Source of the DNA: Methylorubrum extorquens
Lineage (GTDB): Bacteria > Pseudomonadota > Alphaproteobacteria > Rhizobiales > Beijerinckiaceae
Direction of reading: 5' to 3'
Length of the DNA: 64,000 nt
NCBI RefSeq assembly: GCF_024169925.1
Contig: NZ_JALJXF010000001.1
Span: forward strand, 1,308,001-1,372,000
The notes beneath the pieces are model-generated. The model saw nothing but the letters and a program-made list of their open reading frames with translations. It searched no databases and was not told the DNA's origin. This document shows, piece by piece, positions 16,201 to 37,669 of this stretch (position 1 is the stretch's first letter; every line of letters starts with the position of its first letter). The position numbers and the translations under genes are program-made.

Positions 16201-18441
16201 ACGCTCGGCGGCGGCCTGGAACCGGCCCACCACATCGTTCGAACGGTTCTCGACGGCGGCGGCGGCCTCGTCGGCGGCGCGGCGCAGCGCCTCGGCGGCC
16301 TCGGCGAAGCGGGTGGTGACGGCAGCACTCTGCGCCTGGGCGGCTCCCGAGGTCTCCTCGGCGACGTGCAGCATCCGCGCGGTCGATTCCACGGCGCGCT
16401 CGGCAAGCAGGCCGCTCATGGCCTCGGCGGCCTCGCGCAGGCGGCGCTCCAGCGCCTCGACGCTGGCGCCGACGGACGCGGTTGCGGTCTCCGTGTTGCG
16501 GCGGATGCCGTCATGGGCCGCAACGGTCCGGGCGTCGAGATCCTTGCCCAGGCGGGCCACGGTCTCGCGCAGGCTCTCGGCGCTGCCGTTCGCGTTGGCA
16601 GCAAAGCTGGCGCCGAGCCCGGCCAGAGCCTGCTCGACGGTGGCGGCGGCCTGCGCCGCCCGCTCGGTCATCAGGCCGGCGACACGCTCGCCCGCCGTGT
16701 CGAGGTTCGAGGCGAGCGCCCCGCCCTGGACGGCGATGACATCATCGACGCGCGACGCCGCCGTCTCGATACGGGCGGCGAGTTCGAGACCGCGGCCGTT
16801 CATGGTCTCGGCCGCGTGGGTGGCGGAGGCCAGGAACGCGTCGCGGACCCGGTCGATGCGGGTGGAAAAGTCATCGGCCACGCTGCCGGCGGCGAGCGCC
16901 AGGGCGGCCTGCGCGTCGCGCCCGCGTCCTTCGATCAATTCGGAGACGCCGGTGCCGGCCGCCTCGATCTCGGTGCGCAGCGAGGCACCGCGGACGGCGA
17001 TGTCCTCGGAGATTGCCGCGCCGGTGGCGGCGAAGGTGCGGCTTAGGCCCTCGCCGGTCTCGGCAAAGCGCGCGGTGATGGCGCCGCCGGTCTGGGCGAA
17101 GCGCTCGGTCAGCTCGGTCCCGCGCGACAGGAAGGCCTCTTCCAGGCCCTTCGTCGAGCGCTCGAAGGTCTCGCGCACGGCGCCGCCCTGGCGGTCGAGC
17201 GCCTCGATCAGGCCGGTGCCGGTCTCGGACAGGCTCTGGGCGACGGCGCCCGCATTGTCGGCGAGCGTGCGGGTGAGCGCCCCGCCGGTGCGCTCGAAGG
17301 CCTGCGTCACCGCGTCGGCGCGCTGCTGCAGCGCGCTGGTGAGGCTGGTGCCGATCTCTTCGAGGCCGCCGCGCACGCCTTCGCTGGTGGCGGTGAGCTG
17401 GCGGACCAGATCGTCGCCGCGGGTCGAGACGTTGCCGACCACCCGTTCGCCGACCTCGCCGAGCGCGTTGGTGATCGCCTCGCCGCGGGCGTCGAGCGCC
17501 CCGGTGACGCGCTCGCCCGCGCCGTTGATGGCGGCGACGATGCGCTCGGCCGCGCCATCCAGCTCGCTCGACAGGTTCTCGTGCGATCCGGCGATCGCTC
17601 CGCGCACCCGGTCGGCGCTGCCGACGATGGACTCGCGCTGGGCGATCAGCTCATCGACCAGGCTGCGGATGCGGATCTCGTTGTCGGAATAGGCCCGCTC
17701 CAGGGTCGAGATCTCTCCGCGCACCAGCGTTTCGAGTTCGCCCGCGCGGGCCAGCGCCCGCTCCACGCCGTCGCCGACGGCGGCGACCTCGCGGCGCACG
17801 GTCTGCGACATGGTCAGCACCGCGTCGGTCGAGAAGCTCTCGGGCTCGGCCAACCGGATCGCCACCTCGCCGACGGCGCGGGCGACGAGGCGCATCTCGT
17901 GGGCGCGCACGGCCAGCATCGCCGTGATGAGGAACAGCACGATCGGCCCGGCGATGGCGGTGGCCACCACCGCCGCCTGAAGCGCGGTGAGCCCGGTCAC
18001 GAACGTCTTCAGGTCGCCGCCGGACTGGTTCCAGGCCAGCGCCACGAGGCCGTTGAGCCAGAAGAACGAGGCGATCGCCGCGACGAGGTACGGCTTGCGC
18101 GAGGGCCGCACCCGGAGCGTCTGCTGCAGGATGCCGATGTTCTGGCGGTCGTCGTTGGCCACCAGCGAGCGGTCGGGCGGCAGGAGCCCGCCCTCGCGGC
18201 GCGAGCGCCCGCGCTCGGGCAGCGGCAGATCGGACGCGGCGGGATCGATGTCGAGGGTCGGGGTGCGGCGTCCCCCGGCCTCGGAGAACGGATCGGCCAG
18301 CGGATCGCCGTCGCCGACATCGGGCAGCCGCGGCTCGACCCGGGCAGTGTCGCCCGGCGCCGGAATGTCCAGATTCAAAGCCTGCTCGATCGCGGAGAGT
18401 GCGGCCTCCGCCGGATCCTTCAGCTTCTTCTCGGTGGCCAT
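10210..18441 (-). CDS. Giant membrane-anchored coiled-coil protein, GPR/RgsE-like polar growth factor
   Basis: The 2743-residue protein starts at ATG 18441 behind GAGGG. Residues 1-115 are soluble and acidic. Two membrane helices lie near 118-137 and 157-177. About 2200 residues of Ala/Glu/Arg-rich helical repeat follow, then a Pro/Ala linker, then a compact C-terminal domain of about 120 residues (SVEFWQRYRQGDTNLFDGRL ... GEFERLLGEV). This layout matches the apolipoprotein-like growth pole ring protein GPR of Agrobacterium and RgsE of Sinorhizobium, which organise polar growth. The role is inferred from architecture. Different internal repeat periods are described separately. An Hpt gene is divergent upstream. 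Confidence 0.8.
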   Translation of the reverse strand: MATEKKLKDPAEAALSAIEQALNLDIPAPGDTARVEPRLPDVGDGDPLADPFSEAGGRRTPTLDIDPAASDLPLPERGRSRREGGLLPPDRSLVANDDRQNIGILQQTLRVRPSRKPYLVAAIASFFWLNGLVALAWNQSGGDLKTFVTGLTALQAAVVATAIAGPIVLFLITAMLAVRAHEMRLVARAVGEVAIRLAEPESFSTDAVLTMSQTVRREVAAVGDGVERALARAGELETLVRGEISTLERAYSDNEIRIRSLVDELIAQRESIVGSADRVRGAIAGSHENLSSELDGAAERIVAAINGAGERVTGALDARGEAITNALGEVGERVVGNVSTRGDDLVRQLTATSEGVRGGLEEIGTSLTSALQQRADAVTQAFERTGGALTRTLADNAGAVAQSLSETGTGLIEALDRQGGAVRETFERSTKGLEEAFLSRGTELTERFAQTGGAITARFAETGEGLSRTFAATGAAISEDIAVRGASLRTEIEAAGTGVSELIEGRGRDAQAALALAAGSVADDFSTRIDRVRDAFLASATHAAETMNGRGLELAARIETAASRVDDVIAVQGGALASNLDTAGERVAGLMTERAAQAAATVEQALAGLGASFAANANGSAESLRETVARLGKDLDARTVAAHDGIRRNTETATASVGASVEALERRLREAAEAMSGLLAERAVESTARMLHVAEETSGAAQAQSAAVTTRFAEAAEALRRAADEAAAAVENRSNDVVGRFQAAAERVGGELGSRSEGASQALHAAIQRMADELSARSAEATGALALAAAHAGGEIGNRTDQSMHALQDLLRQVADEISVRGAEASVALSLAAAQAGGEIGSRADQSAQGLRDLLRQVQDEIDGRTAEVTDALARTAERVGGEVGTRTEESLRALRETLGRIGDELSARGAETTAALARAAEQAGGEVNSRTEASLRSLRDALSQIGEELSARSTEATAALARAAEQAGGEVGGRTESALEALRETLRGLGDEVAARGEATAQALSRTAEGVGSELETRLGALEDSFGRHGRGAAALIASQSDEAQARLEGASREVVLAIAGHVSQVGDTLHRSHAAFVETADNRTRAVEEALGNRLAALQETIARGDILADRIAGNAQALGDTLDSRLSEIDRIIAVQGNALADSLAERARLAGETVEARIGEMESLSARRAAEIGESFATLVGHVDTRLGARANALNEALVTRASEIARTLDEGNRILTDALDRRIEGSAQDIANRGRSVGDVLANRASEIAERLERTTQDLARRLDEGAERLDTGVVARLDALSGTLEERTRHLDESFGIQALEAVRLIESRTRTIDGELTGRIRDLVALLERRSGLAVEALGGHVEAIARLFDERAESLNHLFDERGGALAADLDQRGRVAVEGLEGRLADITQALEQGGASLGALLDRRGTALLATLRDLMGQVDGLLGEGTGRLGHAFETQAGEIRTLLDSRADDLRGLMEGSAGRVRGELEAGLGSFETVLEERLRTVRDLLDARSAEIRDTFDHRTDDLRGLMEGGAGQVRGAFDTSLGVLETVLEERLRTVRELLDSRSSEIRDTLDSRTGELRGLVDGSAGHVRGEFETGLGALRAALEEPARTVQDLLDSRAGEIRAMLDARNDDLRTTFEERARTVQDILDHRTGEIRGLLDGHAGRLDEGFQGRILPLQAALTEGARLFVETLESGIGRAAGEVDARTRGLAHLFDERLGVLGDIVDGRGQQVAQTVETRAQELRALFDEIHATLGALVDERSTTLTGRLETQTQALAAVFDERMRSLDGLVESRGGDFARLVANQAATLSQTVETRSEDFTARIDARLRAFATVVANRANALADAFDERQDAYGAQIDGGTARMVAALDERARQHAAQFETVEERQKAVAALIEEGTARIAATLDERARQQSAFAEAFDGQRDAYASVIEQGTARMVAVLEERARRHAAQAETVEEGQRAVAALIEEGTARMVAALDERARRQAAFAETLDGQRDAYASVIEEGTARMVAALDERAQRQAALTDAFDGQREAYASLIEQGTARMVSALEERARRHAVLAEAFDRQKEAYAALIDGGTARMVAALDERTERQAALAETFDERQNAYAALVDAGIAGMGRMLEERARRHAAEVQARADALAETMDQRNGALARMIDGPAAALADALAEREQALDRLIADKGAPLVEALRERTDAIVVRTVESAKALRAALDEGAAASADTVAQAHERVRRDVAGFLTRIENANDGLKDLVGGASENLGAIEQGLAARVEQIQSALDRVAADTAQASDRVSTQVVALREASQGALAQASDLAETLDARGKALVERTGTHVGALSEAAGTLEAVEGRLAESLSSRQAVVEAVLSRLEERSQAIEAQTGRFGSVVEETLRAAEARARELSESVARAAREAGTAVAGDFERLRSGADTESARTADAVRSAIEEASAKMMQSFAAASGQFGDSVTRMNAMAAEIRRELDATRADLQRGVLDLPRETQDATSEMRRVVAEQIDALNELSALVARSNRSVDVAQPAAQARGAEQRRTAEAGRGVSIASPAPAAAPPPARTAAPAAGRSQPAASAPVRPASPAAIPGPVQGRPSTRDNRGWLSDLLTRASLDDDGAEAVPAPAPAAAPEAKGPVERISLDAISTDIARMVDHQASVEFWQRYRQGDTNLFDGRLYTTQGRQTFEQIQRRYRADAEFRRTVDRYVGEFERLLGEVTKNDRDTKRADAYLTSETGKVYTMLAHASGRFDEA
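12110..12905 (-). repeat. 108-bp (36-residue) tandem coding repeats in the giant gene
   Basis: Seven to eight direct units each carry a version of GTARMVAALDERARRQAAFA followed by ETLDGQRDAYASVIEE. The recognisable ACCATGCGGGCGGTGCC-like block recurs every 108 bases at about 12219, 12327, 12435, 12543, 12651, 12759 and 12867. Neighbouring units are nearly identical, which suggests recent duplication or gene conversion. Confidence 0.85.
13465..14130 (-). repeat. 165-bp (55-residue) tandem coding repeats in the giant gene
   Basis: About four units carry RTVRDLLDARSAEIRDTFDH, then RTDDLRGLMEGGAGQVRG, then a glycine-leucine spacer. The block GTGCGCAGGCGCTC recurs 165 bases apart (about 13795 and 13960). 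55 residues is five 11-residue (hendecad) helical units. Confidence 0.8.
15440..16160 (-). repeat. 132-bp (44-residue) tandem coding repeats in the giant gene
   Basis: Units of the form AGGEVNSRTEASLRSLRDAL followed by SQIGEELSARSTEATAALAR recur with a 132-base period, for example near 15530, 15662 and 15794. 44 residues is four hendecads, consistent with a continuous left-handed or untwisted helix rather than classic heptads. Confidence 0.8.
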
Positions 18442-18789
18442 GCAACCCTCGTACGCATCGCCATCCAGTGCAGAGCTCGCGCCCTCCGCAATGGAGACGG
18501 ATTTACCCGACGTCTCACGGGATCTTAGTCCCTCGGATGATGCCCCCGATACCCAATCGGCCCGGCGCACCCAAGAAACCTTAACGGAATGGTTACCAAG
18601 CCGGGTCCCGCGATCCGGCATTCGCCCCAAGTTCTGACGCTTGCAGCCTTAAACGGGTACGGCCCAAACCGGCCTGGGCTGTGGATAGCCGGCGCGGCCC
18701 ACAGGCAGGTCGCCGCGCTGCGCCTCTTTCGCGGGAGCCGGGCGGGTGGAGCGGCCGTTTCATCCCGAGCACAGATGTCAAAGTAGACG
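18442..18789. other. Divergent intergenic region (giant gene / Hpt gene)
   Basis: The upstream frame of the giant gene stays open here but lacks protein-like character. This region most likely holds the divergent promoters of the giant gene and the Hpt gene. No specific motif was recognised. Confidence 0.4.
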
Positions 18790-23829: not shown

Positions 23830-24525
23830 TCAGGCGTCGGGCATCGCCGACTGGATGAGACGGTCGGAGGAGAGGTCCTCCTCGTCATACCCGAGGAGTT
23901 CGGCGAGGCGGCCGCGGGCGCGGCTGACGCGGCTCTTCACCGTGCCGACCTTGCAGCCCATGATGGTCGCCGCCTCCTCGTAGGAGACACCCTCGGCACC
24001 CACCAGCACGAGGGCCTCGCGCTGGTCCGGCGGCAGCTTGGCGAGCGCCGTCTGCAGATCCTCGACGTCGAGCCGGTCGCCCTGATGCGGCGCGGTGGCG
24101 AGGCGTGCGGCGTAGGAGCCGTCCTGATCCTCGACCTCGCGCACGCGCTTGCGGTGATCCGAGTAGAAGATGTTGCGCAGGATCGTGAAGAGCCATGCGT
24201 TGAGGTTCGTGCCCGGCTGGAAGCGGGCGCGGTGCTGCCAGCCCTTGAGCAGGGTGTCCTGCACGAGGTCGTCGGAGCGCGCCGGGTTCGAGGTCAGCGA
24301 CAGGGCGAAGGCGCGCAGGGACGGCACTGCGGAGAGCAGGCCGTTGCGGAATTCGGGATCGATCCGCTCGCCCTGGGCCTTGAGGGCCGCTTCGAGCTTG
24401 CCGATCAGCTCGGAGAAGCGTGACGGCGTGTCCTCGCCGGCGCCGAGCGTGTCGTACACGCTGCGCAGATGATCGCCGAGATGGCTGCGGATCGAGTCGG
24501 AAAGTTTGGGACGGCCGTCTGTCAT
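23830..24525 (-). CDS. EcfG-like ECF sigma factor with NepR-like N-terminal extension
   Basis: The 231-residue protein is numbered from ATG 24525; ATG 24564 would add 13 residues. Region 2 (about 57-125) contains SDDLVQDTLLKGWQHRARFQ and NLNAWLFTILRNIFYSDHRK. Region 4 (about 152-212) contains LPPDQREALVLVGAEGVSYE and GTVKSRVSRARGRLAELLGY. These are close to EcfG, the general stress sigma factor of alphaproteobacteria. Residues 10-48 (SIRSHLGDHLRSVYDTLGAG ... TPSRFSELIGKLEAAL) resemble the two helices of its anti-sigma factor NepR. The protein may therefore be self-inhibited. No separate nepR or phyR is adjacent. Confidence 0.85.
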   Translation of the reverse strand: MTDGRPKLSDSIRSHLGDHLRSVYDTLGAGEDTPSRFSELIGKLEAALKAQGERIDPEFRNGLLSAVPSLRAFALSLTSNPARSDDLVQDTLLKGWQHRARFQPGTNLNAWLFTILRNIFYSDHRKRVREVEDQDGSYAARLATAPHQGDRLDVEDLQTALAKLPPDQREALVLVGAEGVSYEEAATIMGCKVGTVKSRVSRARGRLAELLGYDEEDLSSDRLIQSAMPDA

Positions 24526-24812
24526 CGCGGGACGATCCAGGGTCGCTTCGGTATCGTTACGCATCGGGCACTTCGCGATCGGGACTTTTCGGCAAAGACG
24601 GTGCAGTGCAGCACGCGGGGCAGGCCCCGGCACGGCCCTTAACATAGCTGTAGCGCATCGCTCCGATCCAGCACACCCGCGCCACGCGAAATACTGCCAC
24701 GCTTGCACACGGGACGGTAGGCTGTCGCCCCAAAGAGTGAGATGATTCGCCGATCCTGCCGCGTGAATGCGGCAAATCGGCAGGTCCATCCGCTTTTTCC
24801 GATCGACCGCCC

Positions 24813-25628
24813 TCAGGCCGCGCCGTGGATATCCGGCATCGGACGCTGCCGCGTCGCGCCCTTCAGCACCCGCACCACCCCGTCGGTGAGAACGAGGGTG
24901 TCGCCGCGCTCCAGTTCAGTCCAGGTCTCGTCGCGGGTCAGCGCCCGCGTGGCGATCATGGTGACGATATCTGTCTCGGTGGTCTCCTGAGCGAAATCGA
25001 CCCGCCAATCCTCGTCGATCAGCGTCGCCGTGCCGAACGGCGCCCGGCGGGTGAGGTAGCAGAGCCGCTTGCCGCAATGGGCATAGAGCACGCGACTGTC
25101 GGTGAGCAGCATGTTGAAAACACCGCGCTCCGAAAGGATGCGGGCGTAACCCGCAATGGCCGCCTCCAGGGTCGCGGCGCGGGGCGGCTTGGGGAAGCGC
25201 TCCTGGAGTTGCGACAGCATCCAGCAGAAAGCGTGTTCGCTGTCGGTGGTGCCGATCGGCTCGAACCGGCCGAGCGGCAGCCGCTTCACGCCCTTGAGCT
25301 GGCCGTTATGGGCGAAGGTCCAGCGCCGGCCCCACAGCTCGCGGGAGAAGGGATGGGTGTTCTCGAGGCTGACGCGCCCGCGATTGGCCTTGCGGACATG
25401 GGCCACGACGATGCGGCTCTTGATCGGATAGCGGCGCAGGAGCTTGGCGAGTTCGGAGCGTGCACTGGGCTCGGGGTCGTGGAAGGAGCGGCAACCGCGC
25501 CCCTCGTAGAAGGTGATACCCCAGCCGTCGGCATGCGGGCCGGTCTCGCCGCCGCGCCGGGCCAGGGCGGCGAAGGAGAAGCGGATATCGGTCGGCACAT
25601 TCGCGCTCATTCCGAGCAGTTCGCACAT
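24813..25628 (-). CDS. Class II glutamine amidotransferase (YafJ-like)
   Basis: This 271-residue protein is a stand-alone glutaminase-type Ntn hydrolase. After Met removal the nucleophile is Cys2 (MCELLGMSANVPTDI). Active-site context follows: ETGPHADGWGITFYEG, VVAHVRKANRGRVSLENTHP (Arg and Asn binding glutamine), FAHNGQLKG and GTTDSEHAFCWMLSQL. It lacks the synthase domain of GltB or PurF. It either transfers ammonia to an unknown acceptor or hydrolyses a glutamyl compound, as YafJ/Gat1 proteins do. A REP-like element separates it from the next genes. Confidence 0.9.
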   Translation of the reverse strand: MCELLGMSANVPTDIRFSFAALARRGGETGPHADGWGITFYEGRGCRSFHDPEPSARSELAKLLRRYPIKSRIVVAHVRKANRGRVSLENTHPFSRELWGRRWTFAHNGQLKGVKRLPLGRFEPIGTTDSEHAFCWMLSQLQERFPKPPRAATLEAAIAGYARILSERGVFNMLLTDSRVLYAHCGKRLCYLTRRAPFGTATLIDEDWRVDFAQETTETDIVTMIATRALTRDETWTELERGDTLVLTDGVVRVLKGATRQRPMPDIHGAA

Positions 25629-25688: not shown

Positions 25689-25795
25689 TAGAGCGCATAC
25701 CGGCGAAGTGGAAACCGGTTCGTCGGAAGAATGCGCATCAAAACAAGGATCGAGCGACGCCGGCCCGGTGCGATCAGCTTGGATACGGCTCTAGG
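25689..25795. repeat. REP-like palindromic element
   Basis: The element starts TAGAGCGCATACCGGCGAAG, continues through AAACCGGTTCGTCGGAAGAA and ATGCGCATCAAAACAA, and ends GGCTCT. It has the same arms and CCGGTT centre as the repeat at 20213, in the opposite orientation. It lies between the amidotransferase gene and the upstream end of the ActF-like gene. Confidence 0.6.
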
Positions 25796-27020
25796 AAGCT
25801 TCGGGGGGCGGAACAACCGATTTGGGGCGCATGTCCCCCGCCGCCGCGCCCGGTCTCCCCCGCGCGCCCTCGCGGCCCGGCCAGACAGGAGTGACGGCGA
25901 GCCCCGGAATCAGGCGCCGGACCGCAGGCGCCAGTCCCAGGGCGAGCCCGATCATCCCGGCGAGCGCCAACAGGTCGGTGAGGCCGACGCGAAAGTAGCC
26001 GCGGAAGGCGGGCGTGACGAACCAGAACAGCTCGGCGAGATGGACCGCGACCGCGAGCGCCGCCACCAGCCGCGTGCGGTTCTCGCCGGGACGCAGGGTC
26101 AGGATGGCGGCAAGACCCACCACGATGGCGGCGGATAGTGCCAGGGCGCGGCCGGAAAAGCCTGCGCGCAGCCGATACCACGCGGCGGCCCCCGGATCGG
26201 CGGCGGCGCCGAGCATCAGGAACTGCACGACATGCAGGCCGGCCCAAACGAGGAGCAGCACAGCGAGCGGCGTGAGCCGATCGTGGCGGCGCCGGGCGGG
26301 GCCGGCGTCGGGCGGCGCAACGAGGATTGCGGCGGCGAGCGCCAGACTCGACCACGCCGCCAGCACCAGCAATCCGAAGGCGCTGGCATGGAAGCGGGGG
26401 CCGGGATCGGTTCCGACCGACATGACGAGGTCGCCGGCCGCCAGCGTGCCGACCACGGTGTGGAGGCCGAGGCCGAGCACGGCGCGCCCGTCGTCGATCC
26501 GCCCGGCCTTGGCCCAGGGCTCGCCGCCGCGGCGGGCGAAGAGCAGGGCGAGCCCGGTCCAGAGCGCGAAATAGAGGGCGAGGCGGGCGGCGAGCAGCGG
26601 CGGCGCGGCTCCGAGGAGGGCGAGCGGACCATCCGGCCCGGCGCTTTCCGGCGCCGGGTAGAGCAGGAACGCGGCCACCGGGATCGGCAGCGCGAGGATC
26701 GCGGCCACCGGCATCAGAACCAGCAGACCGCGCAGGGTCTCGAGCAACGCGGTCTCGGGCTGCGGGCGCCACGCATCGGCCCGCTCGATCATGATGACGA
26801 CGGGCAGCGCGCCCGCCGGCAGGGCGAGAAGGCAGGTCCAGGCGGCGAGATAGGCGGGCGCGAGCCGGGGCAGCCCGGCATGGTGGAGCGCCAGCAGCAG
26901 GCAGGCCATTCCCACGGCGAAGGCCGCCGCCGGGCGGCGGGCCGGATCGCGGAAATACGCACCCGCGGATTTCGCCCCCGTCGCCTTGCGGGCGGCACCG
27001 CCCTTCTCCTCCGCGCTCAC
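25791..27020 (-). CDS. ActF-like membrane subunit of alternative complex III
   Basis: This 409-residue integral membrane protein has about ten hydrophobic segments, including FAVGMACLLLALHHAGLPRL, ALYFALWTGLALLFARRGG, LAVLLLVWAGLHVVQFLMLG and LLALAGMIGLALGLAPAVRR. The arrangement and length match ActF, one of the two quinol-module membrane subunits of alternative complex III. It starts at GTG 27020, overlapping the TGA stop of the fused ActC-ActD gene (GTGA), so the two are translationally coupled. The assignment rests mostly on that context plus topology. Confidence 0.7.
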   Translation of the reverse strand: MSAEEKGGAARKATGAKSAGAYFRDPARRPAAAFAVGMACLLLALHHAGLPRLAPAYLAAWTCLLALPAGALPVVIMIERADAWRPQPETALLETLRGLLVLMPVAAILALPIPVAAFLLYPAPESAGPDGPLALLGAAPPLLAARLALYFALWTGLALLFARRGGEPWAKAGRIDDGRAVLGLGLHTVVGTLAAGDLVMSVGTDPGPRFHASAFGLLVLAAWSSLALAAAILVAPPDAGPARRRHDRLTPLAVLLLVWAGLHVVQFLMLGAAADPGAAAWYRLRAGFSGRALALSAAIVVGLAAILTLRPGENRTRLVAALAVAVHLAELFWFVTPAFRGYFRVGLTDLLALAGMIGLALGLAPAVRRLIPGLAVTPVWPGREGARGRPGAAAGDMRPKSVVPPPEAS

Positions 27021-28921
27021 CGCTGCGGCTCCCCGGCGGCGGGGCCGTAGAGGGCGAGGGGGCGTCCCGCATCCGCCGGCAGGGCGTTCAGGCGCCGGGC
27101 GAGGGCCGCCGGAATGAACGGCGTGCCGGAGGGCTCGATCGTCAGGACGAAATGTCCGGCCAGAGCGGAGGGGAGGACGCGGCCGGTCCGCCCTGTTCTC
27201 AGAGCGGAGACGAGCGCCACGCCGAGGCCGAGCACTCCACCCGCCGCCGCGGCGGAGAGGGCCGGCACCGCTGCCATCGCCCAGGATAACGGCCAGGAGG
27301 CCGGCCAGGGAGGGGGCCAGACATCGGGCCACGAAAGCGGCCGGGCGAGGAGCGCCGCCACGCTCGCCGGCCCGTCCGGCATTTCCCCGGCAAGGCCGGC
27401 GATGCGGATGGCGACGAAGGCCGCAAATCCGAGAAAGGCACCGAACAGCGCGAGGCGGTTCAGGCTTCGCTCCTCTCGGTGCAGGGCGCCGGCAACCTCC
27501 GGCATCGGCACCGGAGCGAAGGCCTCGAGGCGGGGCGCGCGGGCCCCCGAGACCCCCCGCGCCGCCTCGGCGAGCCCGGCCTCCGAGGCGAAGATCGCGA
27601 TGAGGCCGGGGGGCTGGCCAAACGATTGAGCGAGAGGCTGGCCGGGGAGCTGGCCCGGCCGGATGTTCGGCGCGATCTCCGGCGCCCGCGGCGCGGCGTG
27701 CGCGTTCTCGGCGAGGGCGAGCTGGCGCGTCTCGGCGATTCCGACCGGCGGCACGAGGCGGAGAAGAAGCAGCAGGCCGAGGACGAACAGCCCGGCGGAC
27801 CCCAGCATGGCGACCTCCGCGGTCAGGAGATCCGCGAGGCTTGCCCCCGCCGCCCCGATCCGCGTGGCAAGCACGTGATCCGCTCCGAGACCGATGGCGA
27901 CGAGGGCGCCGATCAGACCGAGGGCGAGGGCGCTGCGGCGGATCGCGGGGATCCAGAACAATTGCGTGGGGAGAAGCCCGGCGAGCATGAGTGTCCAGAA
28001 AGCGGGCGCCTCGTCGCCGAAGAGCCTGCGCGTCAGGCGCGCCCGCTCGGCAGCGTCGCCGTAGAGCAGGGCGGTGACGATCTCGGTGACGTGGCAATAG
28101 AGGGCGGCAAGGCCGAAGGCGAGCAGCAGCCGCCCGAGGATATCGAGATGCCGGCCGGTGATGAGGCCGTCGAGCCCGCGGCTTCGGCGCAGGGTCGTGG
28201 CGAGCGCCGCGGTCAGCCCGGCACCCGAGAGCACCGCCTCGACCAGAAGGGCGACGGGGAGCAAGGTGTCGTGCCGGTCGGTGCGCAGGGCGGCGGCGAG
28301 CGCAAGATCGATCAGCACCGCCACCGCCGCGAGAATGCCGAGCAGGCCGAAGCCGCGGCAGGCCCGCTCCCAGGCGAGCCATTGCAGCGCCGAACCGCAC
28401 CAGCCGGCGGACAACGTCCGGTAGAGGCGGGCGCGTCGGGAACCCGGCCCCGCGACGTCGCGTAACACCGCTACATCCGGAAGGAGCGCTGCCGCCCAGA
28501 GGCCGAGGCTGGCCAGGAGCAAGGCCCCGAGGCTCACCGGATGGACCGGCGCCGGGTGGAGCGCGGCGAGACCTGAGCAGAGCAGGGCAGCGGTCTGCGT
28601 CAGGCGCCCGATCCCGCAGCGCCACGCGACGCCCGCGAGGAGCAGCAGCCCCGAGATCAGCAGGCAGCCCGCAGCGAGCCCGATCCACCACGCGGCGCCG
28701 GCCGGACCGAATTCGACGGGCACGGCCGAGCGCAGACCGGCCCAGACGAGGATCGGGACGAGGGTTGCGGCGACGCCGAGCCGCCAAAAGCCACCGGCGG
28801 GCGCGAGCACGCTCCCCGCGAGCGCGGCGGCGATCGAAGCGACCGTCTCCCCGGCCCCGATCACCGGCGCGCCGTAGAGGGGAGCGGGCTCGGCCGCAGG
28901 CTGAAACACGCGTTCGGTCAT
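27017..28921 (-). CDS. Fused ActC-ActD (NrfD-like plus DUF3341) membrane protein
   Basis: Residues 1-405 are an NrfD/PsrC-type ten-helix protein resembling ActC. Diagnostic parts are LLPDVAVLRD (147-156), YRTLSAGWCGSALQWLAWER (167-186), GLDGLITGRHLDILGRLLLA (249-268) and RLVPPVGIAE (388-397). After a proline-rich linker (406-437), residues 438-625 match ActD/DUF3341: GLIAIFASEAGLAEAARGV, LEAFAPVPMPEVAGAL, two helices, and HFVLTIEPSGTPFIP. In alternative complex III these are separate proteins. The His-Gly-Arg quinol-side motif expected after helix 3 reads HPAP here, so activity may be altered. ATG 28921 has only a weak ribosome site. Confidence 0.8.
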   Translation of the reverse strand: MTERVFQPAAEPAPLYGAPVIGAGETVASIAAALAGSVLAPAGGFWRLGVAATLVPILVWAGLRSAVPVEFGPAGAAWWIGLAAGCLLISGLLLLAGVAWRCGIGRLTQTAALLCSGLAALHPAPVHPVSLGALLLASLGLWAAALLPDVAVLRDVAGPGSRRARLYRTLSAGWCGSALQWLAWERACRGFGLLGILAAVAVLIDLALAAALRTDRHDTLLPVALLVEAVLSGAGLTAALATTLRRSRGLDGLITGRHLDILGRLLLAFGLAALYCHVTEIVTALLYGDAAERARLTRRLFGDEAPAFWTLMLAGLLPTQLFWIPAIRRSALALGLIGALVAIGLGADHVLATRIGAAGASLADLLTAEVAMLGSAGLFVLGLLLLLRLVPPVGIAETRQLALAENAHAAPRAPEIAPNIRPGQLPGQPLAQSFGQPPGLIAIFASEAGLAEAARGVSGARAPRLEAFAPVPMPEVAGALHREERSLNRLALFGAFLGFAAFVAIRIAGLAGEMPDGPASVAALLARPLSWPDVWPPPWPASWPLSWAMAAVPALSAAAAGGVLGLGVALVSALRTGRTGRVLPSALAGHFVLTIEPSGTPFIPAALARRLNALPADAGRPLALYGPAAGEPQR

Positions 28922-29347: not shown

Positions 29348-31957
29348 ATGCCGATGGAGCGTGATCCCGTCCTGTTCGCCTGGGCCTCGTCCCCGCGTCG
29401 GCACGCGGCGGCGCTCGGGCTGGCGGTGGGCCTCGGCGGACCGCTGGCGCTGTTCGTGCTGCTGTGCCTGCGCGACCTGATCGCGGTACTGACCCGCAGC
29501 AGCCCGGACTTCCTGCCCTTCCTGCGGATCGCCCTGCCGCTGCCGGGCCATCACGGCGACGAAGCGCCGATCCTGTTCCAAGGGTGGAGCCTGCCGCCCA
29601 CGGAACTTCCGCTGATCGCGCTGACCTCGCTCGCCGCCGCGGCCCTGCTGCTGGCCGCCCTGGGGGCCGCGGTCGCGTATCTCTGCTTCTCCGTTCAGGC
29701 CCGGGCCACGGCGCGGCTGCGGGCGCGGGCCACCGAGGCGATCCTCGCCTCGCCGCCCGGTGCCCGCGAGGATCTCCGGGCGCTGCCCGGCCTCGTCGGC
29801 CAAGCCCTGGCGCGGATGGGTCCGCTCTCGGCGGTCGGCATCGTCGTGCCCGGCCTGACGCTCGCGGCGATCCTGCTCGCCCTCGTCATGGCGGAACTCG
29901 CCGCCCCGCGCCTCGTGCCGGTGATCGCGCTGTTGCTCGCCGCCGTCGGGCTCGCCCGGGTTCTGCTCGCCAGCCGCACCGCCGCCCGGCACAGCCTGCG
30001 CCAGGCCGACACCGCCGCGACGGAGACGGGCCTGCGCGACCTGATCCGGCGGATGCCGGCGGTGCGCGCCCACGGGGCGGCGGCGTTCGAACGCCGTCGC
30101 CTCGGACTTCGGGCGCGGGCGGCGCGCAGCGCGCTGGTGCGGGCGGAGGCCCGGCTCGCTTATGCGCGGGCCCCGGCACTCGCCCTCGTCGTGATCCTGC
30201 CCGCGCTCCTCGTCGCCACCGCCCTGTGGCAGGGCGAGGCCGCGACCGAGGCCGACAACGTCCTACCCGGAGCGCTGGTCGCCGCAGCCGGTGCCTTTGC
30301 GCTGGCGGCAACCCTCGTGGCGATCAGCCTGCGGCTGTGGAGCCAGCACCGGGCGGTCGCCCCCCTGTTCCGTTCCATCGCCGAGACGCTGGACGCCCTG
30401 AGCCCCCGCCTGCCGGGGAAGAGCTCGCGGAGCGCGGCCCCATTCCCGAAGACGGGCGCCCTGGTCGCCAAGGGCGTCGGCGCCTACGATCCCGGCAGCG
30501 GCGAGCGGCTGACCGGCGTCGATCTCGCCCTACCGATGCCGGCGCATGTGGCGATCGTGGGTCACCGCGGCAGCGGATCGCGGGCGCTCGCGGCCCTGCT
30601 CGCCGGGCAGATCGAGCCCACCGCCGGCGCGGTCACCTATGGCGGTACCGACCTGCGCGCCTTCGACTCCGCCGAGCGCGCCCGCCGGATCGCGCTGGCC
30701 GGCTCGGAGGCGATCCTGATCGAGGGGACGCTGCGCCAGAACCTGCTCTACGGCGCCCGCAGCGGCGACCGCGAAGCCTCGGGGCTGGCCGAGCGCATCG
30801 CCATCCTCAAGCTCACCGGGCTCGACGCCTTCGTCTACGAGCGGGGCCTCGAGGCCTCCGTCGACCCGGAAGACGATCCCGCTACGGCGGAAGCGGTCGT
30901 CGCCGCCCGCTGGGCGGTGCGCGATGCGCTGGCGAGCGAGGGCATGGCTCGGCTCGTCGAGCCGTTCGACCCGGCCCGCTACAACCATCAGGCCGATATC
31001 GGCGAGAACATCCTGTTCGGCGAGGCGGTGAGCCCGGCCTTCACGCAAGCGCGGCTCGCGGCGCATCCCTACCTGCGTGCCGTGCTGGAAGCAGAAGATC
31101 TCACCCGCACCCTGGTCGATGTCGGGCTCCAGGTCGCCCGCTCCACCGTCGAGATTTTTTCGGATTTGCCAGACGACCACCCTCTGTTCGAGAGCTTCTC
31201 GCTGTTTCCGGCGGCCGAGCGGGGTTACTTCGAGGATCTGGTCGCGCGCCAGCCCGAGGCCCGCGGTTTCCGCCGCGGTCCGGCCGGGCACCGCGACCGC
31301 GAGCGGCTGATCGGGCTGGCGCTCCGTTACAGCGAGACGCGCCACCGCTTCGGTCTGATCGACGAGGCGCTGGAACAGCGTCTGGTCGCCGCCCGCCATT
31401 CCTTCGCGGCGATGCTGCCGCCACGCTATCGCGAAAAGGTCGAGTTCTACGATCCCTCCCGGCTCACCGCCGCCGCGAGCCTGGAGGAGAACCTGCTGTT
31501 CGGGCGCATCACCCAAGGTGAGGCGGGCGCCGAGGGACGGGTGCGCGCTCTGGTGCGCCGGGTGCTCGCCGAGCAGGGGCTGGAGCCCACCGTCTACCGG
31601 CTCGGCCTCGCGGCGCGGATCGAGGCGGGCGTCGCGGTGGCGGGCCAAGGCCAGCGCGCGGTGCTGGGGGAGGGCGCTATCGGCCCGCGCGAGCGGGTGG
31701 CGATCGAGTTCGTGCGCTGCCTCGTGCGCCGTCCGGACATCCTCGTGGTCGGACTCTCGCTCGACGACCGCAAGCCCGACGAGATCACCGCCCGCATCGA
31801 GCGCCTGCGGGCGCTGCGCGCCGGGGCCGCGCTGATCGTCTGCCTGCCCGACGAGGACACCCTCAACCGACAGGCGCCGTTCGACGCGGTGCTTCGGGTG
31901 GAGCGCAACACGGTGGTCACGGGCGAGTCCCGGGAAACCGAGGCGGTCACGGCCTGA
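29348..31957 (+). CDS. ABC-transporter-like protein with degraded ATPase motifs
   Basis: The 869-residue protein has about six membrane segments in residues 20-330, like an ABC exporter domain. A nucleotide-binding-like region follows. The P-loop position reads GHRGSGSRA (405-413), with Ser in place of the essential Lys. Three motifs of the Q-loop-distal type occur: TLRQNLLYG (461-469), IGENILFG (551-558) and SLEENLLFG (711-719). The signature/Walker B area reads AIGPRERVAIEF ... PDILVVGLSLDD (777-807), lacking LSGGQ and the DE pair. ATP hydrolysis is therefore unlikely. The helical insert 560-700 is unfamiliar. The gene is divergent from the ActCD-ActF pair. Confidence 0.7.
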   Translation: MPMERDPVLFAWASSPRRHAAALGLAVGLGGPLALFVLLCLRDLIAVLTRSSPDFLPFLRIALPLPGHHGDEAPILFQGWSLPPTELPLIALTSLAAAALLLAALGAAVAYLCFSVQARATARLRARATEAILASPPGAREDLRALPGLVGQALARMGPLSAVGIVVPGLTLAAILLALVMAELAAPRLVPVIALLLAAVGLARVLLASRTAARHSLRQADTAATETGLRDLIRRMPAVRAHGAAAFERRRLGLRARAARSALVRAEARLAYARAPALALVVILPALLVATALWQGEAATEADNVLPGALVAAAGAFALAATLVAISLRLWSQHRAVAPLFRSIAETLDALSPRLPGKSSRSAAPFPKTGALVAKGVGAYDPGSGERLTGVDLALPMPAHVAIVGHRGSGSRALAALLAGQIEPTAGAVTYGGTDLRAFDSAERARRIALAGSEAILIEGTLRQNLLYGARSGDREASGLAERIAILKLTGLDAFVYERGLEASVDPEDDPATAEAVVAARWAVRDALASEGMARLVEPFDPARYNHQADIGENILFGEAVSPAFTQARLAAHPYLRAVLEAEDLTRTLVDVGLQVARSTVEIFSDLPDDHPLFESFSLFPAAERGYFEDLVARQPEARGFRRGPAGHRDRERLIGLALRYSETRHRFGLIDEALEQRLVAARHSFAAMLPPRYREKVEFYDPSRLTAAASLEENLLFGRITQGEAGAEGRVRALVRRVLAEQGLEPTVYRLGLAARIEAGVAVAGQGQRAVLGEGAIGPRERVAIEFVRCLVRRPDILVVGLSLDDRKPDEITARIERLRALRAGAALIVCLPDEDTLNRQAPFDAVLRVERNTVVTGESRETEAVTA

Positions 31958-32108: not shown

Positions 32109-33329
32109 ATGCTTCCCCCGAACCGCTCTCGAGGCTCTGTGAGATCCTTCCTCAGAACCCTGATTCCGGGGCTGGTCGGGTTGTCGATCCTCATGGCGTC
32201 GAACACGCTCGCACGGGCCGACAAGGCGAACGCGCCGATCCCGGCCGCGACCCTGGCGCTGATGGCTGCGCGCGGCACCAACGCCGCCTCGCCGATCGTG
32301 CTGCGCGCCTACAAGAAGGAATCCGAGATCGAGGTCTGGAAGCGCAACGCCGCCGGGCGCTACGTGCCGATCAAGACCTATCCGATCTGCCGCTGGTCCG
32401 GGCAGCTCGGGCCGAAGACCAAGAGCGGCGACCGGCAGACGCCGGAGGGGTTCTACACGGTGGCGAAAAGCCAGATGAACCCGAACTCGCGCTATTACCT
32501 CTCCTTCGACGTCGGCTACCCCAACGCCTTCGACCGGGCGCACGGCTCCACCGGCTCGGCGGTGATGGTGCACGGCGTCTGCTCGTCGATGGGCTGCTTT
32601 GCCATGACGGATACGGTGGCGGGCGAGCTGTTCTCGATCGCCCGCGAGGCGTTCGCCGGGGGGCAGGGCGCGTTCCAGTTCCAGTCCTTCCCGTTCCGGA
32701 TGACCGCCGCGAACATGGCCCGGCACCGGACCGACCCGAACATCGCCTTCTGGCGCCAGTTGAAGGAAGGCTCGGACCGCTTCGAGGCGACCGGCGAGGA
32801 GCCGGCCGTGAGCGTCACCGCCGGCCGCTACACCTTTGCGCCCTCGCGCGATCCGGCCAAGGAGACGGCGTTCACCGCCCTGCACAAAGACGAGACCGAC
32901 CGCATCGCCGCCCTGGTGGAGGAGGGCGCGGCGGCCGTGCGCACGACCTACTCCGACGGCGGCCAGCACGCCTTCTGGGCGGCGCGGATCCTTCAGGGTC
33001 ATCCGGTGGGCGACATCAGCCGGCCGGAGGCGCTGGCCTATGCCGGCCAGGAGGTCGTGCTGATCCCCGCCCGCCGCAGGGCGCCGCCCCCGCCGCCCGT
33101 TCCCGAGGCCGTATGGGCCGCCTGGATCGGCATGGACAGCCCGTCGCTCACCGTGCGGACCGCTGGGTTCGTGCCGCCCTACGTCGCCGCGACGGCACGC
33201 ATCGCGGCGCCGGTCACGCGCTACGCGCAGACGTGGCCGAGTCTCGCCCGCGCGGCGATCGAGGGTGCGCTGCCGCCGCCCGATTTCACCCAAACACAGC
33301 CTTTGATTGAAAAACTGGCCCAGCGCTGA
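32109..33329 (+). CDS. L,D-transpeptidase (YkuD family), exported
   Basis: This protein of about 406 residues has an N-terminal signal peptide (SFLRTLIPGLVGLSILMASN, cleavage near LARA). The YkuD domain (residues about 60-220) contains the catalytic motif AVMVHGVCSSMGCFAM, with nucleophile Cys in H-x-x-x-S-S-x-G-C. It is a murein L,D-transpeptidase-like enzyme of the YafK type, which crosslinks or anchors to peptidoglycan in the periplasm. This fits a polar-growing Hyphomicrobiales cell, where 3-3 crosslinks abound. The C-terminal 190 residues are a family-specific Pro-rich extension. GTG 32139 is an alternative start. Confidence 0.87.
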   Translation: MLPPNRSRGSVRSFLRTLIPGLVGLSILMASNTLARADKANAPIPAATLALMAARGTNAASPIVLRAYKKESEIEVWKRNAAGRYVPIKTYPICRWSGQLGPKTKSGDRQTPEGFYTVAKSQMNPNSRYYLSFDVGYPNAFDRAHGSTGSAVMVHGVCSSMGCFAMTDTVAGELFSIAREAFAGGQGAFQFQSFPFRMTAANMARHRTDPNIAFWRQLKEGSDRFEATGEEPAVSVTAGRYTFAPSRDPAKETAFTALHKDETDRIAALVEEGAAAVRTTYSDGGQHAFWAARILQGHPVGDISRPEALAYAGQEVVLIPARRRAPPPPPVPEAVWAAWIGMDSPSLTVRTAGFVPPYVAATARIAAPVTRYAQTWPSLARAAIEGALPPPDFTQTQPLIEKLAQR

Positions 33330-36258: not shown

Positions 36259-36942
36259 TCAGAGCGCCCAAGTCAGGTCCCGATAGGCGCCGTCCCAGAA
36301 CCCGTATTCGAGACGGGTCGCGTGGGTGTAGGCCGTGTGCATGCGGGCGCGCAGCGCCGGGGAGGTCTCGGCGGCGGCCTCGTCGGTGGCGGCGATCATC
36401 GCGGCCACCGCCTCGCCGAACTCCTCACCGGCATAGGTGTCGATCCAGGCCCGGTAGGGATTGTCGGACTTTGCGCGGGAGAAGATGTCGCGGCCGACTT
36501 CGGCATAGATCCAGAAACAGGGCAGAAGAGCGCCGAGTACGACTTCGTAGGGTTCGGCATAGGCGGTCGCGAGCAGCCACGCGACGTAGTGGTCGCAGGC
36601 CGGCGAGAGGGGCGTTGCGGCAAACGTCCCGGCATCGATGCCGTATTCTTGGAAGAAGCCGCCATGCAGCGCCCGCTCGACCACGATGGCGGTCTCGGCG
36701 CCGCGGGCGAACTGCACGATCCGGTCGGGATGCGGCGCCTTGGCGGCGGCGAGCGCCAGCCCCCGGCCAAAACCGATGAGGTAATGCGCGTCCTGCACGA
36801 TGTAGCGGCGGAAGCGTTCCGGGCTCAGGGAGCCGTCCGCCAGTTCCGCATTGAACGGCATCGTGCGGATCGCCTCGTAGGCCGCGAGATTGCGCGCCCA
36901 GGCTTCCTGCGAGAAGCGCCCGGCAGAGGGGATGTCGGCCAA
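36259..36942 (-). CDS. tenA: TenA family aminopyrimidine aminohydrolase / thiaminase II
   Basis: This 227-residue protein has the active-site cysteine Cys142 in LLPCFWIYAEVG, the YIVQDAHYLIGFGRGLALA substrate helix and the closing motif EYGFWDGAYRDLTW with the catalytic Glu. TenA hydrolyses degraded thiamine pyrimidines to HMP for salvage and works with ThiD. It begins 27 bases after a response regulator and probably shares its operon. Whether the two-component system senses thiamine status is an open inference. Confidence 0.92.
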   Translation of the reverse strand: MADIPSAGRFSQEAWARNLAAYEAIRTMPFNAELADGSLSPERFRRYIVQDAHYLIGFGRGLALAAAKAPHPDRIVQFARGAETAIVVERALHGGFFQEYGIDAGTFAATPLSPACDHYVAWLLATAYAEPYEVVLGALLPCFWIYAEVGRDIFSRAKSDNPYRAWIDTYAGEEFGEAVAAMIAATDEAAAETSPALRARMHTAYTHATRLEYGFWDGAYRDLTWAL

Positions 36943-36969
36943 GAAGGGCGCTCCGTCTTCTGAAAAGGA

Positions 36970-37659
36970 TCAACCCTGCCGCTGGGCCTGGGTCACCGCG
37001 ACGTGGATCAGTTCGGCCAGCGTGCGCACCCTGAGCTTCTGGCGCATCTGCGAGCAGGCGTTGGTGACGGTCTTGTAGCTCACCGAGAGGTCGGCGGCGA
37101 TGGCGCCGTAGGACTTGCCCTGCGCGAGGCGCGCCAGGATCTGCTGCTCGCGCGGCGTGAGCTGGGTCTCCGGGGTGCGGCGCGGGTCGGCGCGCAGCAT
37201 CGCCACCTCGGTGGCCAGCCGCCGGTCGAGATAGACCTCGCCCGCACGCACCCGCTCGAAGGCCTGGAACAGCTCGTTCGAGGCGTGGTCCTTGAGCACG
37301 TAACCCAGCGCCCCGGCCTCCAGCGCCCGCGAGACGATGACGGGATCGTTGTGCATCGAGAAGACGAGCACCCGGGTCTCGGGCTCGACGGCGCGCATGC
37401 GCCGGATCAGGGCGAGGCCGGCGAGCCCGCTGCCCTGGAAGGTCAGGTCGCAGATCACCACCGGCGGGCGCAGGCGGTGGAAGGCGCGGTAGCCGGAGAC
37501 GACGCCGGTCGCCTCGACCACGGTCTCGATCCCGGCATCCTCCAGCACGCGGCGACAGCCTTGCAGGACGATCGGGTGATCGTCGATGACCAGAACCGGG
37601 ACGGGTCCGCCCTTGCTCGACGCCGCTTTCATCACGGGGCTGCTGACCGGCGCGTTCAT
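36970..37659 (-). CDS. NarL/LuxR-type response regulator
   Basis: This 229-residue protein has an N-terminal receiver with acidic pocket Asp26-Asp27 (VLVIDDHPIVLQGC), phospho-acceptor Asp71 (VICDLTF) and conserved Lys in GYVLKDHAS. The C-terminal helix-turn-helix reads LTPREQQILARLAQGKSYGA, then LSVSYKTVTNACSQMRQKL. ATG 37659 lies 10 bases after the stop of the upstream kinase gene, so it is almost certainly the cognate regulator. It is followed by tenA. Its binding sites are unknown. Confidence 0.93.
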   Translation of the reverse strand: MNAPVSSPVMKAASSKGGPVPVLVIDDHPIVLQGCRRVLEDAGIETVVEATGVVSGYRAFHRLRPPVVICDLTFQGSGLAGLALIRRMRAVEPETRVLVFSMHNDPVIVSRALEAGALGYVLKDHASNELFQAFERVRAGEVYLDRRLATEVAMLRADPRRTPETQLTPREQQILARLAQGKSYGAIAADLSVSYKTVTNACSQMRQKLRVRTLAELIHVAVTQAQRQG

Positions 37660-37669
37660 CTTACACGCA

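Follow-up and report, generated by a model that had tools for sequence, protein, structure and literature searches.

A stripped alternative complex III in Methylorubrum suggests that a respiratory membrane half was kept for a new job

The membrane module of alternative complex III (ACIII), formed by ActC, ActD and ActF, is represented by the structures from R. marinus (6f0k), R. castenholzii (6lod), C. aurantiacus (8k9e) and F. johnsoniae (6btm), with which the locus described here was compared. NrfD-like subunits are presented, in the sections of PMC8076601 consulted, as quinone-interacting membrane anchors that may also move ions. Methylobacterium mesophilicum and related members of the genus (loci L062-L085, L087 and L088) carry one of the closest described systems, an ACIII-caa3 cluster classed as COX operon type a-I, in which the genes are ordered actA-actB-actCD-actE-actF-coxBAC. 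In locus L066, Pfam identifies ActA as a cytochrome c7, ActB by Fer4 and Molydop_binding, ActCD by NrfD and ActD, ActE as a cytochrome c and the oxidase genes as COX2-cytochrome c, COX1 and COX3. All eight cluster genes were seen in 23 of 27 complete-type loci, while L072, L082, L083 and L085 show part of the cluster, three of these being cut by contig ends.

The actCD-actF locus and its missing redox subunits

The window analysed is a stretch of 64,000 nucleotides from Methylorubrum extorquens. The original prediction of a fused ActC-ActD protein translationally coupled to ActF was confirmed, as actCD (27017..28921, minus strand; P0001) encodes a 634-residue fusion and actF (25791..27020, minus strand; P0002) a second NrfD-like subunit of 409 residues that is a homologue of the ACIII protein, the two genes sharing a GTGA stop/start overlap at 27017..27020 (minus strand). 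In 13 other reduced loci measured, this overlap is 4 nt in 12 and 1 nt in one. The NrfD-like ActC part (residues 1-415; 27677..28921, minus strand) matches PDB ActC chains with a phmmer E of 1.3e-29 and a profile E of 1.3e-43. The ActD part (residues 430-634; 27017..27634, minus strand) matches PDB 8k9e_D at E 9.8e-05 and PF11821 at E 7.4e-07 over residues 439-505, a match that is above the cut-off and covers only the first 68 of the 170 profile positions. Of the family assignments predicted, DUF3341/ActD was thereby recovered and NrfD was not: PF03916 gave no match here at E 1 and none across the genome, and it matches the complete sister locus L066 at 3.5e-12. Some of these proteins are already named 'quinol:electron acceptor oxidoreductase subunit ActD' by NCBI.

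Four neighbouring genes served as synteny markers. A divergent ABC-type protein (29354..31957, plus strand) is followed by an L,D-transpeptidase (YkuD) gene (32139..33329, plus strand) that is shared by most Methylorubrum loci and M. mesophilicum; downstream of actF lie a class II glutamine amidotransferase gene (24813..25628, minus strand) and an ECF sigma factor gene (23830..24564, minus strand) with a weak NepR match below the cut-off. Rfam at the gathering threshold gave no match between positions 24000 and 33500, and a promoter and terminator scan of the locus returned nothing above chance level.

ActA and ActB, predicted to be missing nearby, were not found anywhere in the genome. An ActA search that matched five of five controls found none here, nor in any of the nine reduced genomes without ActB, this one among them. 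The best ActB candidate in the genome reaches only E 1.5e-5 on a 219-residue frame and was not counted as ActB; the same search matches ActB in 60 sister genomes at 65% identity or above. The TIGR04519 profile found nothing in this genome in a run in which the controls also went unmatched, and it does match the L066 ActB at 1e-10. Within the locus, no ActE is encoded between actCD and actF or elsewhere in the cluster, and no redox gene separates the actCD-actF module from its neighbours in the reduced loci. A second, complete act cluster, which would have spoken against the original prediction, was not found in this genome.

Origin of the reduced form

Among 111 genomes of the genus, 60 carry the ActB of the complete type, 21 the reduced form, 8 the second ACIII type only and 22 none. 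Both forms occupy the same surroundings: the ABC protein is found next to actA in 19 of the 27 complete-type loci and next to actCD in 14 of the 17 reduced ones, the amidotransferase and then the sigma factor lie downstream in 19 of 27 and 17 of 17, respectively, and 18 of the 27 complete-type loci have both flanks (L034 counted in). An ActF tree of 57 rows groups 16 reduced proteins into one clade (support 99) and 26 complete-type proteins into another (95). This tree, obtained by a quick method and containing long outgroup branches, places L086, L039 and L034 outside with support; since L034 is a complete locus that branches outside both clades, the complete form is ancestral. The same split, with support of 100, emerges from a tree of three joined neighbour proteins (32 rows). 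The named reduced loci number only 16, with 12 from the Methylorubrum group.

The reduced form arose once, from an ancestral complete cluster. The ancestor carried actA-actB-actCD-actE-actF-coxBAC at this very place, as synteny and trees show, and lost its electron-transfer and oxidase genes once, before the Methylorubrum and M. gnaphalii groups split, with actE excised precisely between two 4-base overlaps to leave actCD-actF. Two separate origins, one in Methylorubrum and one in the gnaphalii group, were ruled out, since both groups fall into a single ActF clade and on one side of the neighbour tree. In one clade member, G241, the module was not found; its contig stops inside the ABC gene.

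One element of the original prediction did not survive this comparison. The ActC-ActD fusion, at first considered the key novelty, is also present in the complete clusters of the genus, is therefore older than the gene loss and was set aside as the distinguishing feature. The module itself is what remains of a complete cluster and does not represent an unrelated new assembly. Locus L036 seemingly harbors another fused C-D protein, in a different cluster type. PF11821 gave five matches across 385 genomes of the class, own genome included, and the other genomes with ActC or ActD, four of which came from this search and 17 from another, showed a strong ActB match in 21 of 21, so that no second case of reduction was found. 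Nor did the open-licence full texts searched yield an earlier report of a reduced ACIII.

Pocket erosion and selection on the module

Residues are named after R. marinus as given in the portions of PMC5928083 and PMC8076601 consulted. Between TM3 and TM4 of ActC, at residues 121-131 (28529..28561, minus strand), the quinol-site loop is deleted; complete ActC proteins have about 30 residues more at this place, from His139 to Asp169. The His139 column holds His in 41 of 41 proteins of complete-type, canonical or other clusters and in none of the 16 reduced ones. The pocket-loop stretch is 64 residues long in all 41 non-reduced rows and measures 35 (11 rows), 47 (one), 55 (three) or 64 (one) in the reduced rows, a series in which the loop is eroded stepwise. 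Asp is retained at the Asp169 column, whose placement depends on the alignment, in 4 of 16 reduced rows and not in the window protein. A periplasmic Arg of ActD, present in 26 of 26 complete-type rows and as Arg or Lys in 15 of 15 canonical rows, is kept in 1 of 16 reduced rows, and the cytosolic LPRLxHP stretch of ActD is missing in most. Glu122 of ActD, proposed to couple redox chemistry to pumping, appears as Ser already in the complete L066 and is therefore no mark of reduction. With the pocket and the ActB-facing periplasmic parts eroded, these residues argue against ACIII-style quinol oxidation, and the predicted redox-free character is upheld by the deleted pocket together with the missing ActA and ActB.

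The genes of the reduced form are under purifying selection, with omega between 0.07 and 0.20. The codon model gave values for ActC, ActD and ActF of.138,.195 and.070 in the Methylorubrum group (n=9),.093,.145 and.075 in the gnaphalii group (n=4) and.062,.052 and.084 in the complete type (n=8), and omega=1 was rejected in all nine tests (2dlnL 183-1134). Constraint on reduced ActF is thus on par with that in complete complexes, while omega of ActC and ActD exceeds that of complete complexes by a factor of 1.5 to 3.8. The looser constraint on these two proteins and the loss of the LPRLxHP stretch in most rows may mean that some of the module is in decay. Nei-Gojobori medians of dN/dS, drawn only from pairs with dS of.15-1.2, are higher (.54 for CD and.32 for F in the reduced form,.29 and.29 in the complete type); the codon model was preferred because it allows for codon bias and the genes are GC-rich.

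Given the topology, the conserved surface of reduced ActF has shifted to its cytosolic loops. The sidedness of these loops is based on homology, hydropathy and charge, with 14 Lys/Arg among 60 cytosolic loop residues versus 7 among 72 periplasmic ones. Mean column identity in reduced ActF is.94 on the cytosolic and.57 on the periplasmic side (20,000 permutations, p<0.0001), versus.71 and.77 in the complete type (p=.24), and the same shift of face is obtained when the loops are taken from an AlphaFold model of ActF. On an omega grid with kappa fixed, cytosolic and periplasmic loops reach.01 and.13 in reduced ActF and.06 and.08 in complete-type ActF, and in all nine cases omega of 1.0 fell short of the best value by over 50 lnL. 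The TM2-3 loop (residues 78-97, IERADAWRPQPETALLETLR; 26730..26789, minus strand) is near-invariant within the reduced clade; across all 43 proteins aligned, 13 of 19 positions at residues 79-97 are identical. The TM4-5 loop (residues 162-181; 26478..26537, minus strand) has a seven-residue insertion relative to complete-type ActF, and the TM6-7 loop (residues 237-249; 26274..26312, minus strand) reads PDxGPxRRRxDRL. More than one codon is used in 44 of 49 degenerate loop columns with an invariant amino acid, indicating that the constraint acts on the protein.

A putative platform and its alternatives

One lineage of Methylobacterium-type bacteria thus lost the electron-carrying genes of ACIII and kept those of the membrane half, whose worn pocket and newly constant inner face suggest a new job for this leftover. 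Probably, the module is a domesticated ACIII-caa3 remnant that now serves as a redox-free membrane platform for a putative cytosolic partner. After the gene loss, erosion proceeded in steps at the quinol pocket and on the periplasmic side that faces ActB; a membrane pair of the ActC-ActF type would still be built with ActD attached, the ActF fold being predicted and the pairing assumed from homology; and selection retains the module, whose conserved surface, given the topology, has relocated to the cytosolic loops of ActF, where the module may bind, hold or regulate the partner. Against a retained role stand the 22 genomes, out of 111 in the genus, that have no ACIII form at all. More tentatively, with the chances a little short of even, a respiratory proton-pump arm may, after the loss of every cofactor subunit, have become a redox-free membrane receptor or scaffold whose functional side is inverted, the cytosolic ActF loops forming a near-invariant docking surface for a putative cytosolic protein or ligand. 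The new job in the original prediction is supported indirectly, by purifying selection and the shift to the cytosolic face; the function itself is putative.

A redox-independent ion path, in which protons or another ion would now pass through, or be gated by, the ActC and ActF half-channels and the cytosolic loops would act as gate, seems unlikely. The mouth of the ActC cytosolic half-channel, where the part of PMC5928083 consulted locates proposed proton pathways, is largely kept in the reduced rows (equivalents of Arg114, Arg119 and Asp191 in 16/16, Arg196 and Asp197 in 13/16, Glu450 in 12/16), Glu326 persists in 11/16 and the Tyr323 position is His in 16/16; however, the periplasmic end is eroded, Glu122 of ActC is Gln in 12/16, and the residues central to the path in R. 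marinus, namely His97, Thr100 and His247 together with Asp253 of the pocket, are missing already from all 26 complete-type Methylobacterium rows. The chances are smaller still that the module is a functionless relic on its way out, a reading that would account for the raised omega of ActC and ActD, the Nei-Gojobori CD median, the stepwise shrinkage of the pocket loop and the absence of the module from 22 genomes and, as far as its contig reaches, from G241. Such decay is at odds with the rejection of omega=1 throughout, with frames that are open and coupled in 14 loci inspected (12 distinct), with retention by 21 of 111 genomes in two groups and with the identical positions of the first ActF loop.

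We consider it improbable that a different periplasmic electron-transfer partner has replaced ActA, ActB and ActE, as the quinol pocket and the ActB-facing loops are what eroded and no redox gene is left between the module and its neighbours, even though the ActF fold and the C-D-F coupling are kept. A comparably slim chance attaches to a scaffolding role within the membrane, and not through a cytosolic partner, in the assembly or supercomplex of another membrane oxidase: ACIII-caa3 oxidase supercomplexes occur, according to the part of PMC5928083 consulted, and coxBAC stood at the end of the cluster that was lost, but the ActF cytosolic loops and not the membrane helices are most constrained (grid omega.01 versus.06). 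Least credible is a spare membrane arm for a second ACIII. A second ActB, about 45% identical, does occur in 12 of 21 reduced genomes, 11 of these with ActA, yet neither subunit was found in the other nine, own genome included, and for the own genome a hybrid with redox subunits encoded elsewhere is ruled out. Moreover, the second clusters inspected in three reduced genomes each carry their own C, D and F; stops break one, and the two intact ones are full clusters. In support of the platform reading, genome G202 combines a second ACIII interrupted by stops with an actCD match that has none.

One genus with complete, second-type and stripped ACIII, with the polarity settled and with relatives such as Methylorubrum extorquens that include laboratory strains, makes it testable whether the membrane half functions apart from redox chemistry; this bears on how NrfD-type modules work and on the recycling of modular respiratory complexes. 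With the NrfD-like subunits (PsrC, DmsC, HybB and others) the module shares two cofactor-free four-helix bundles, as far as the consulted part of PMC8076601 describes them; there they are anchors of redox subunits, whereas for the ActC-ActF pair here none was found. It shares with the M. mesophilicum-type cluster two neighbours (18 of 27 loci), the fused ActC-ActD and a sister position in the ActF tree, but that cluster keeps actA, actB, actE and coxBAC and a 64-residue ActC loop with the pocket His. Relative to known ACIII, ActA and ActB are not found in the genome, ActE is lost from the cluster, the quinol His and pocket loop are gone, and the conserved face is now cytosolic.

Gene content of the complete and reduced loci

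The fused actCD gene (window 27017-28921, reverse strand) and actF (25791-27020, reverse strand) stand without recognizable ActA or ActB partners in the M. extorquens genome, which was searched whole (5.26 Mb, four contigs, listed completeness 100%). The ActA query found no match there and was positive in 5/5 control genomes, and the ActB query, which gives matches of at least 65% identity in 60 sister genomes, returned a single weak match (E 1.5e-5) to a 219-residue frame. The sole PF11821 match in the genome is the window locus itself.

The complete cluster of alternative complex III (ACIII) was read from a sample of 47 ActF-relative loci and 14 further regions. The order in species such as Methylobacterium mesophilicum, M. 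longum and M. fujisawaense is actA-actB-actCD-actE-actF-small gene-coxB-coxA-coxC, with five CXXCH motifs in actA, one in actE, a haem motif in coxB and a fused actCD of about 670 aa. Pfam supports each assignment at the M. mesophilicum locus except ActF and the small gene, both without a family match; among PDB entries this ActF matched that of R. marinus at 8.4e-8. The full set of eight core genes is seen in 23 of 27 complete-type loci; L072, L082, L083 and L085 are seen in part, with contig ends truncating three of the four. A 676-aa ActC in another cluster type (L036, G010:C23, 9051-11081), with no separate ActD called, is apparently a further C-D fusion.

Most complete and reduced loci share their surroundings. 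An ABC-type protein (29354-31957, forward strand, in the window) and an amidotransferase-sigma factor pair (24813-25628 and 23830-24564, both reverse) flank the complete cluster in 18/27 complete-type loci; in reduced loci the pair follows actF in 17/17 and the ABC-type gene precedes actCD in 14/17, the remaining three being L052, which starts within actCD, and L050 and M. haplocladii (L059), which have a different gene in that place. A 4-base overlap joins actCD to actE in all 26 complete-type fused loci measured and actE to actF in 29 of 30 loci measured (ActC being unfused in four of the 30), and a 4-base overlap of actCD with actF in 12 of 13 reduced loci shows that actE was cut out precisely.

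The ABC-type protein (867 aa) has a match in 111/111 genomes of the genus (only partial, 42%, in G193), and its Pfam ABC_tran match is confined to 388-478. Walker-A motifs usually contain Lys; the corresponding stretch here, GHRGSGSRA, has none, and the ATPase may therefore be dead or altered. Elsewhere in the window, a 2806-residue frame (10210-18630, reverse) carries 11 apolipoprotein-like helical repeat matches (PF01442, E 2.2e-71) and is opposed over much of its length by an open 2269-residue frame, and three adjacent genes (36259-39157, reverse) encode a histidine kinase whose periplasmic domain is of the LapD/MoxY kind, a response regulator of LuxR type and a protein of the TENA/PQQC family.

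Descent and distribution

The ActF tree (57 rows) groups the 16 reduced rows in one clade (support 99) and the 26 complete-type rows in a second (95); L034, a complete fused cluster, and L086, from Lichenibacterium, branch outside both. The same split appears, at 100, in a tree of three joined neighbour proteins (32 rows, without outgroup), which fits vertical descent. The reduction is accordingly placed as a single event that started from the complete state. When 111 genomes of the genus were sorted from match lists, 60 had the complete type, counted by its ActB match, 21 the reduced locus, 8 the second ACIII type alone, and the remaining 22 none. By ABC-protein similarity, the genomes closest to the window are the 21 reduced ones (G180 judged by a fragment) and G241, which gave no actCD match and whose contig ends within the ABC gene, so that the missing actCD may mean either a real loss or a gap. 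Of the 21 reduced genomes, 12 have a second ActB of about 45% identity; in the three of these that were read, the cluster around it has C, D and F genes of its own. In G202, which is among the three, stops break this second ACIII-caa3 cluster (L096, C9:5000-24900), with stops or splits in ActA, ActB, ActC and CoxA; the reduced actCD match of the same genome is free of stops.

Quinol site, selection and the cytosolic face

The putative quinol site of R. marinus ActC includes His139, Asp169 and Asp253 (PMC5928083). The His139 column is His in 41/41 complete-type, canonical or other ActC proteins, in all of which the pocket-loop stretch spans 64 residues, and in 0/16 reduced ActC. Within the reduced clade it measures 64 residues in M. 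haplocladii, with Pro in place of His, and is shorter in the others: three relatives have 55 residues, one row has 47, and eleven, including the window, have 35. Asp253 is no mark of reduction, since the position is already Met in 26 complete-type rows. An Arg of the ActD periplasmic loop, present in 26/26 complete-type rows (Arg or Lys in 15/15 canonical ones), is retained in 1/16 reduced rows.

Reading frames are open as far as actF in the 14 reduced loci read (12 distinct, one partial), and omega=1 was rejected in 9/9 tests. Codon-model omega for ActC, ActD and ActF was.138,.195 and.070 in the Methylorubrum group (n=9) and.093,.145 and.075 in the M. gnaphalii group (n=4), as against.062,.052 and.084 in complete loci (n=8), indicating that ActC and ActD are relaxed and ActF is not; neighbour genes gave.026 to.064, and a cruder dN/dS method gave higher ratios than the codon model.

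Constraint on the reduced ActF is concentrated on one face, with loop sidedness based on ACIII homology and charge. Mean column identity is.94 in its cytosolic and.57 in its periplasmic loops (p<0.0001), compared with.71 and.77 in the complete type (p=.24); membrane helices, at.75 and.76, show the two sets to be equal in overall divergence. Loops drawn from an AlphaFold model gave the same face difference, as did grid omega (cytosolic.01 and periplasmic.13 in reduced loci;.06 and.08 in the complete type). Synonymous codons in the cytosolic loops vary among the 16 reduced loci. At positions 79-97, 13 of 19 residues are identical across all 43 aligned proteins, namely the window's ActF and 42 database proteins, most of them taken without sight of their gene neighbourhood. 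ActC shows a weaker shift in the same direction (.64 cytosolic and.47 periplasmic in reduced proteins versus.79 and.87). An ActF relative from M. organophilum (P0080), 55% identical overall, also has the WRPQPETALLETLR loop seen in the reduced clade.

An ACIII-derived module

The reduced clade has thus descended with gene loss and deletion in the quinol pocket while its genes stayed under selection. The best reading, close to the redox-free membrane module of the original prediction, is that the actCD-actF pair is a redox-dead ACIII membrane arm kept for something involving its cytosolic face: the residues suggest that quinol oxidation has been lost, and the pattern of constraint points to a possible scaffold or receptor role. 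A literature search of open-licence full texts found no earlier report of such a module. We file it as ACIII-derived and not as ACIII, since it lacks two subunits and the quinol site, each of which was tested for; the complete state is the alphaproteobacterial ACIII attached to a COX operon of type a-I, as described earlier (PMC4013037).
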